Source: a virus
IMG/VR virus record: IMGVR_UViG_3300030103_000970
Location: 1-35,610 of that record
DNA length: 35,610 nt
Reading direction: 5' to 3' (one strand)
Of the stretch, positions 3,128 through 4,326 are shown piece by piece. The notes beneath the pieces are model-generated. The model was not told the origin of the DNA. It ran no database searches and saw only the letters and a program-made list of their open reading frames with translations. Made by a program: the position numbers and the translations under genes. Each line of letters opens with the position of its first letter. Position 1 is the first letter of the stretch.

Positions 3128-3464
3128 CTTTGCCCCCAATCATTTTTAGAATACCTTTGAATCTAGGTATAATAATTTCTGTGGTGTATTTAGTTTCACC
3201 ATTAAGATCATATTGTCTAGTTTCTATTTGACCTTCAATGTATAGAGTAGTTCCTTTCTTTACATATGTTTCAATAGTCTTAGCAATGTTAGGATCCCAA
3301 CATACAACTCTATGCCATTGTGTTTTTTCTTGCCACTCACCAGATTTATTTTTAAATCTTTCTGAAGTAGCTAGAGAGAAACCAGCAAATTTTTCTTCTC
3401 TGGTAGAAATTTTTACTTCAGGATCGCTACCAACACGACCTAGTAATATAACTTTATTAATCAT
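3054..3464 (-). CDS. ssb: Single-stranded DNA-binding protein
   Basis: 136 residues with the bacterial-type SSB OB-fold: N-terminal MINKVILLGRVGSDPEVK, central TQWHRVVCWD and GTTLYIEGQIETRQYD, then a flexible linker and the acidic DPAEDIPF tail used by SSB to bind partner proteins. It coats single-stranded DNA during replication and recombination. GGAGG lies just before the start, and the ATG overlaps the previous stop as ATGATTAA. It belongs with the annealing protein and exonuclease upstream as a recombination set. Confidence 0.95.
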   Translation of the reverse strand: MINKVILLGRVGSDPEVKISTREEKFAGFSLATSERFKNKSGEWQEKTQWHRVVCWDPNIAKTIETYVKKGTTLYIEGQIETRQYDLNGETKYTTEIIIPRFKGILKMIGGKDGSSSKVQSQTNARTEDPAEDIPF

Positions 3465-3750
3465 TTAGACCTCCAATTAAAGTATCTACTGAGTTCTTAA
3501 TTCTAAGTAACTCATAGTGTATATCTGCTTTACTCATTGTAGCAGATAAATCTGTTTTGTCTTGAGTTTGTTCATTACTATCTACGTTTTGTATAAACGC
3601 ATTTATAAAATGAAACAAATCCATTTCACCAACTGGTTTATATTCTTTTTTACTTTTAGAATAATATTCAGCTTGTAATGGTGGGTGTAAATTTAATGGT
3701 AACTTATGCCCTTGTAACACCAGGCTATGTAATAATTCATTTACTTTCAT
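3457..3750 (-). CDS. Unknown protein between pseudoknot RNA and ssb
   Basis: 97 residues, soluble, with a Pro/Leu-rich N-terminal part (HKLPLNLHPPLQAEYYS) and a C-terminal helix (LLRIKNSVDTLIGGL). I do not recognise a family. AAAGGATT lies upstream of the ATG, and its stop overlaps the ssb start by 8 bases. Its leader is the structured GC-rich RNA at 3767-3829, so translation of this gene and of the coupled ssb may be controlled by that RNA. Confidence 0.65.
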   Translation of the reverse strand: MKVNELLHSLVLQGHKLPLNLHPPLQAEYYSKSKKEYKPVGEMDLFHFINAFIQNVDSNEQTQDKTDLSATMSKADIHYELLRIKNSVDTLIGGLND

Positions 3751-3766: not shown

Positions 3767-3829
3767 GTGTGTAGGCATGGAGAACATTGCCCAGCAGCTG
3801 ACCTACACACCGTACCCCCAGCTGTGGGC
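3767..3829 (-). ncRNA. Candidate H-type pseudoknot RNA in the leader of 3457-3750/ssb
   Basis: Read on the - strand, GCCCACAGCTG (3829-3819) pairs with CAGCTG-C-TGGGC (3800-3789): 11 pairs and one bulged C. The enclosed loop holds GTGTGTAGG (3810-3802), which is complementary over 9 bases to CCTACACAC (3775-3767) downstream of the first stem. Loop 1 is 8 bases, the junction 1 base and loop 3 13 bases, compatible with an H-type pseudoknot. It begins two bases after the TAG of the annealing-protein gene and ends about 10 bases before the ribosome binding site of the next gene. It is GC-rich within very AT-rich DNA. A cis-regulatory RNA is likely; ligand or protein partner unknown. Confidence 0.55.
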
Positions 3830-3831
3830 GA

Positions 3832-4326
3832 CTATACTGTCTTAGTAACTTTACTTGGATCTACTTTTCCTGAGTATTTTTCTTCTAAATTTTTCACATA
3901 TTTAGAATCATCAAACTTACCCATGAATATATCAGAGCAAAGTCCTAAGTGACTGAAAGCTTTTGTTAATGCATCAGTCATTGCTTTCTTTGGTGCTTCG
4001 TCATCTAATGCACCAGTCTTTCTATACATTTTAAGTGGTGAACAAATAGGCCCATAAAAATCCCAAAAGCCTTCTTTGTTTTTATTTGTTGCAACAGATA
4101 CTTCTGCAGCTACAACAGCAGTTTGATTACTGTCCATACCATGATAACTGTAATCAACTCGGTATGTCCAACCAGTACCTACTGGGCCAAACTGTTCTGT
4201 TATTTTCATAATCTGCCATTGTGGATCAATAGTAGTTATGTCACCAAAACCTTTATTAATGCGTTTGGTAAATCTAGGATCAGTTTCTTTTAAACTATCC
4301 CATACATTTCTGTTATCTTTCGTCAT
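3832..4326 (-). CDS. Rad52/Sak-type single-strand annealing protein (candidate)
   Basis: About 164 residues from ATG 4326, which has GGAGG just upstream; a longer in-frame start at 4386 would overlap the previous gene heavily. It has an alpha/beta N-terminal half (GTGWTYRVDYSYHG) and a PKKAMTDALTKAFSHLG helix followed by GKFDDSKYV. That last pattern is frequent in Rad52-superfamily annealing proteins of phages. Such proteins pair complementary single strands exposed by a partner exonuclease, and a YqaJ-type exonuclease lies two genes upstream with ssb downstream. Family assignment is from pattern recall and context. Confidence 0.6.
   Translation of the reverse strand: MTKDNRNVWDSLKETDPRFTKRINKGFGDITTIDPQWQIMKITEQFGPVGTGWTYRVDYSYHGMDSNQTAVVAAEVSVATNKNKEGFWDFYGPICSPLKMYRKTGALDDEAPKKAMTDALTKAFSHLGLCSDIFMGKFDDSKYVKNLEEKYSGKVDPSKVTKTV

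Follow-up and report, generated by a model that had tools for sequence, protein, structure and literature searches.

Judging from covariation among its homologues, positions 3829-3767 on the minus strand of the window (the whole 35,610-nt stretch of viral DNA analysed here) form a true H-type pseudoknot in RNA that is maintained by selection. Two crossing stems, S1 (11 bp and a single bulged base) and S2 (9 bp), lie directly behind the gene for a single-strand annealing protein. The host phage is Pelagibacter-phage-like, with a terminase 66% identical to that of EXVC031P. The element stands for a family of structured RNAs that is well supported, belongs to phages of very abundant marine bacteria and has no entry in Rfam 15, and a search of the literature for pelagiphage pseudoknots found no report. 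Since close relatives occur with and without it, and since the genes downstream of it are swapped, its function is directly testable in reporter constructs.

Read 5′ to 3′ on the minus strand, the TAG stop codon of the annealing gene (3834-3832) and the bases TC are followed by the 5′ strand of S1 (GCCCACAGCUG, 3829-3819), which pairs with 3800-3789, and by the 8-nt loop 1 (GGGGUACG, 3818-3811). Next come the 5′ strand of S2 (GUGUGUAGG, 3810-3802), which pairs with 3775-3767, and a single U at the junction (loop 2, 3801), where the two helices could stack. The second half comprises the 3′ strand of S1 (3800-3789; CAGCUGcUGGGC, or CAGCUGCUGGGC with C3794 bulged), the 13-nt loop 3 (AAUGUUCUCCAUG, 3788-3776) and the 3′ strand of S2 (CCUACACAC, 3775-3767). 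It is followed by AUAA, the likely Shine-Dalgarno sequence of the next gene (GAAAGG, 3762-3757), AUUAAU and the AUG start codon.

All stem and loop positions in the first-pass annotation proved correct, including loops of 8, 1 and 13 nt and the onset of S1 2 nt past the stop codon. The same annotation placed the element in a GC-rich gap of 80 bases. The gap is indeed GC-rich but measures 81 nt (3831-3751), and the ribosome binding site (RBS), put about 10 bases past the element, begins 4 nt after S2. The G+C content of the element is 60%, against 31.8% for the window, and equally GC-rich 63-nt windows make up 0.02%. A 61-aa ORF runs antisense to the pseudoknot (3767-3952, plus strand) and is most likely no gene but a side effect of the GC-rich element.

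A purpose-built pseudoknot scan gave the element a score of 45, while the runner-up place in the window scored 27. When the whole window was shuffled 1,549 times with its dinucleotides preserved, seven of the shuffled windows reached a score of at least 45. Nested folding alone did not set the stretch apart (z −0.5). From the window sequence alone a chance origin is thus unlikely, yet the case without homologues is moderate to weak. Crude sums over both helices in seven variants ranged from −27.6 to −30.8 kcal/mol, compared with −18.7 to −24.0 kcal/mol for the best nested folds. The stems use different strands, the loops permit both to form, and the helix sum beats the nested folds, all of which disfavours two mutually exclusive hairpins. 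The first-pass annotation had left the choice between a true pseudoknot and two hairpins competing as a switch; the former is borne out as an H-type pseudoknot under selection and the latter is less likely.

Homologues were collected by scanning viral contigs with the upstream annealing protein, which yielded 80 relatives, and further queries added more. The element was present in 58 of these first 80 contigs; the 22 contigs that lack it include several that end inside or just past the annealing gene. We parsed 16 distinct sequence variants by hand and verified them against the contigs. Every stem position in these variants forms a standard pair (182/182 in S1 and 155/155 in S2, or 0 of 337 broken), with 16 G-U pairs in S1 and three in S2. 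Variants of equal stem length differ by up to eight double changes in S1 and seven in a 10-bp S2, and no pair is lost. Between the window and relative L002, whose annealing proteins are near-identical, pair 11 of S1 changes cleanly from G-C to A-U. As a rough control, pairing the 5′ arm of one variant with the 3′ arm of another gave about 79-81% paired positions against about 100% for the true partners, a comparison in which some relatives' arms are similar to begin with.

Since the structure steered the hand parse, an unguided MAFFT alignment and a variant outside the parse provide cleaner evidence. In the MAFFT alignment, S2 was 100% paired and changed on both sides at seven of its nine pairs. 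The structure as a whole had a covariation score of 0.425, while shuffles gave 0.231 +/- 0.017 and slid registers at most 0.125. Only 72% of cells were paired in S1, since S1 varies in length from 10 to 12 bp and is misplaced by the aligner. A 17th variant (L235), which belonged to neither the parse nor the model, keeps both stems and differs from L077 by a U-A to C-G change in S1. S1 is therewith retained in 17 of 17 variants, and a search for uncompensated stem changes, the check proposed in the first-pass annotation, found none in the 17 variants and left the pseudoknot standing. Homologues with both stems compensated exclude chance, and because the sequence varies freely while the two stems stay intact, we consider the element real.

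The loops vary in sequence and length. Over the 16 variants, loop 1 is 4-8 nt long and in many cases purine-rich, and loop 3 has 9-15 nt; loop 2 has 1-2 nt in all 17 variants. The best conserved unpaired motif is in loop 3 and reads UGUUCUCC in the window and GUUCUUC in most variants. In some variants, of loops 1 and 3 one is rich in purines and the other in pyrimidines, so pairing between them is conceivable on paper.

The pairs that are tolerated also indicate at which level the element works. A U-G pair occurs at the third S1 pair in 7 of the 16 variants and at the fourth in 6 of 16, and these recurrent pairs argue that the element acts as RNA, folded on the coding strand. We therefore rejected a DNA-level element, such as a cruciform or recombination site, as the main reading, given that G-U pairs are tolerated on the coding strand.

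The element occurs in one clade of Pelagibacter-like phages. The annealing-protein gene lies directly upstream in every homologue found, and degenerate motif patterns run over viral contigs gave no long-stem match except after that gene. Scanning with a covariance model gave a single copy for every one of the 11 element-bearing contigs tested, whereas element-lacking relatives and the cultured pelagiphages EXVC029P, HTVC035P and EXVC031P gave no hit. A scan of genome contigs with the annealing protein recovered only six distant relatives, in which the model found no element, and BLAST of two further variants against a phage collection gave no match. More distant relatives (L135, L140, L143 and L150, minus strand) carry a recurring inverted repeat (GATGGGAGTACGAGGAGG...GTACTCCCATC) whose potential to form a pseudoknot is weak; it may be another conserved structure.

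In the annealing-protein tree, three changes suffice to explain the occurrence of the element, and all element-bearing rows fall in one supported clade (35 rows, 98/95). Within this clade, a sister group whose annealing proteins are about 97% identical lacks the element. Relatives L067 (5420-5560) and L087 form a natural presence/absence pair: for most of their length the annealing genes barely differ, but they diverge at the 3′ end, where one has the knot and the other a TAATG overlap. This divergence points to gain or loss of the element via recombination near the gene end.

The ToxI RNAs of type III toxin-antitoxin systems are small pseudoknots, and phage mimics of ToxI are known, so the element could be an RNA decoy or antitoxin mimic directed against such a defence. 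Having a single copy within an mRNA, without repeats, and a sequence that drifts strongly while remaining tied to one gene junction, it is a very unlikely candidate for that role.

Upstream of the element, a RecE/YqaJ-type exonuclease gene and a small ORF precede the annealing-protein gene (3832-4326, minus strand; 164 aa from the ATG used here; PHROG 7838/7792). Downstream in the window lie ORF97 (3457-3750, minus strand), of unknown function, and ssb (PF00436; 3054-3464, minus strand), which overlaps ORF97 by 8 nt. S1 begins 1-3 nt past the annealing stop codon, except in L036 and L037, where the stop codon is within S1. Across 15 measured loci, the end of S2 is 3-12 nt from the Shine-Dalgarno sequence and 14-24 nt from the start codon. 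These loci do not include L036, which carries an extra insert. This second GC-rich insert (about 1948-2030 of L036), between the pseudoknot and an ORF97-like gene, consists of a long ATGTAGC...GCTACAT hairpin (MFE −17.4 kcal/mol) and is absent from the sister L037. A −10-like TATAGTCGC was considered as an internal promoter and rejected by eye: the sequence drifts, there is no good −35, and the start would fall inside S1.

A stable pseudoknot right behind a stop codon, usually TAG, might be expected of a recoding signal that causes frameshifting or stop readthrough in the annealing gene. Several features of the junction make such a signal very improbable here. The spacer is only 1-3 nt, no common slippery heptamer is visible by eye, and in L021 and L038 the in-frame extension ends within the element. 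TAA can also serve as the stop, and in L036/L037 the stop sits inside S1.

The first downstream gene is freely exchanged, sometimes after identical elements, while the annealing gene is constant. Other small genes stand in place of ORF97 in relatives, and the position right after the pseudoknot is an exchange hotspot for several unrelated small genes of unknown function (3457-3750 of the window, L015, L021, L022, L048, L051, L073 and L077). The ssb gene always follows the element at a distance of zero to four genes: no gene separates the two in the L038, L042 and L060 types, a single gene does so in the window, and up to four do in L051. The proposal that the element specifically controls 3457-3750 is therefore not supported, as the gene in that place is swapped while the annealing gene is constant and ssb lies zero to four genes on.

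In relatives that lack the element, the annealing stop codon usually overlaps or abuts the next start codon (TAATG, ATGATAA). Such overlap or abutment is the usual arrangement for coupled translation. Where the element is present, this coupling is thus replaced by a gap of about 75-85 nt and a separate RBS, and the element marks a break in translational coupling. The genes from the element to ssb are spaced by −32 to +14 nt, mostly overlapping or nearly so, which makes the element the main open joint.

According to the account we tentatively favour, though at somewhat less than an even chance, the element is a cis-acting mRNA pseudoknot that provides translational insulation, or an operator, between the exonuclease/annealing genes and the ssb unit. 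The pseudoknot most likely acts on translation. As it fills the interval from the annealing stop codon to the next RBS, ribosomes that terminate at this stop codon would be unable simply to start again on the next gene, and the ssb unit would depend on its own ribosome entry. A terminating ribosome would presumably reach into the 5′ strand of S1, given the ribosome footprint. A protein that recognises the knot could set the level of ribosome entry, with the phage SSB or the annealing protein as first candidates; both the binding and the identity of the protein are speculative. That the element lies between genes is in itself no proof of function, because any intergenic element in a compact genome abuts both its neighbours. 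Three observations count against translational insulation or an operator: a constant annealing gene followed by a changing downstream gene also fits a role in the upstream message, the close relatives with about 97% annealing-protein identity manage without the element, and the knot does not hide the RBS.

Such an upstream role is the main rival and has perhaps one chance in four. Here the element would be a 3′ end module of the annealing-protein message, either a barrier to 3′-5′ exonucleases or a processing boundary, which would set how stable the exonuclease/annealing segment is compared with the ssb segment. Consistent with this, the element and the 3′ end of the annealing gene move together, exchange occurs just past S2 (L002 versus L015, L021 versus L022, L031 versus L033, and L073 versus L077 versus L079), and the shape is far better kept than the sequence. 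Simple hairpins could do this job, however, so that a pseudoknot would be needless. Neither a U-run nor a terminator lies behind the element, and in most variants S2 is only 3-8 nt from the next Shine-Dalgarno sequence.

Folding predicted that in most variants the RBS is similarly open whether the knot is locked or free. In L021, L030 and L073 it was predicted to be closed by pairing other than the knot, and sequestration of the Shine-Dalgarno sequence by the pyrimidine-rich loop 3 was rejected because folding showed no conservation. As the knot leaves the RBS unhidden, no direct switch is visible. This bears on the suggestion that the element is riboswitch-like. Several riboswitches are H-type pseudoknots close to an RBS, and the element shares this topology and position. 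A metabolite riboswitch is nevertheless very unlikely, for the RBS is not controlled by the knot in the predicted folds and there is no terminator-like U-run. Loops 1 and 3 form no invariant, aptamer-like core, since loop 1 is diverse in sequence and length and the loop 3 motif is replaced in L021 and L060, and a downstream metabolic gene is absent. In keeping with the earlier failure to assign a known class, a search of Rfam 15 gave no match at the gathering score, and a permissive search gave only chance matches far below threshold. Riboswitch-like control is thus not supported.

Among known systems, the preQ1, SAM-II and SAM-V riboswitches are H-type pseudoknots near the RBS and resemble the element in topology and RBS proximity. 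They differ from it in that the element has no Rfam match, no invariant ligand core and no RBS sequestered by the knot. Intercistronic or leader pseudoknots control translation in rpsO and in repY/repZ of IncB/IncI plasmids, and in repY/repZ the folding of the pseudoknot depends on ribosomes that terminate just upstream. As in these systems, the element adjoins an RBS. Here, though, what lies upstream is a complete gene for the annealing protein instead of a leader peptide, and no alternative stem that hides the RBS was found.

The gene 32 operator of T4 and RB69 shares more features with the element: a pseudoknot upstream of an RBS in the mRNA of a phage replication/recombination cluster, with ssb downstream and with shape weighing more than sequence. 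In T4 and RB69, the SSB nucleates on a pseudoknot upstream of its own RBS, from which it extends to the RBS across an unstructured stretch of more than 40 nt (PMC535899). A narrower version of the translational reading, its probability included in the latter's, holds that the knot is likewise a nucleation site for the phage SSB, which would repress the downstream unit. The constant presence of ssb zero to four genes on, and its adjacency in three types, is consistent with such autogenous control, which we regard as rather unlikely. The SSB here belongs to the bacterial PF00436 family, and ssb is also present in relatives without the element. The T4 pseudoknot measures about 28 nt; an unstructured UUAAA/UAAA stretch of more than 40 nt comes next, with gene 32 directly behind it. 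The present element, by contrast, is about 60 nt long with a full-turn S1, its Shine-Dalgarno sequence is 4 nt away, and other genes usually precede ssb. At the loci measured, the 14-24 nt from S2 to the start codon fall short of the T4-type stretch of more than 40 nt (PMC535899). Lacking the long stretch, serving an SSB of another family and usually being separated from ssb by other genes, the element should not be classed with the T4 gene 32 operators. We see a limited chance that it is an operator or insulator that evolved in SAR11-type phages independently of T4, in which the SSB or annealing protein would sense the large pseudoknot and terminating ribosomes would open it, balancing the synthesis of annealing protein and SSB. 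By analogy, the T4 gene 32 operator is the closest known counterpart, albeit of a different family. If the element is an operator for the SSB or annealing protein, then control of recombination proteins by an mRNA pseudoknot arose outside T4-like phages, with another SSB family.
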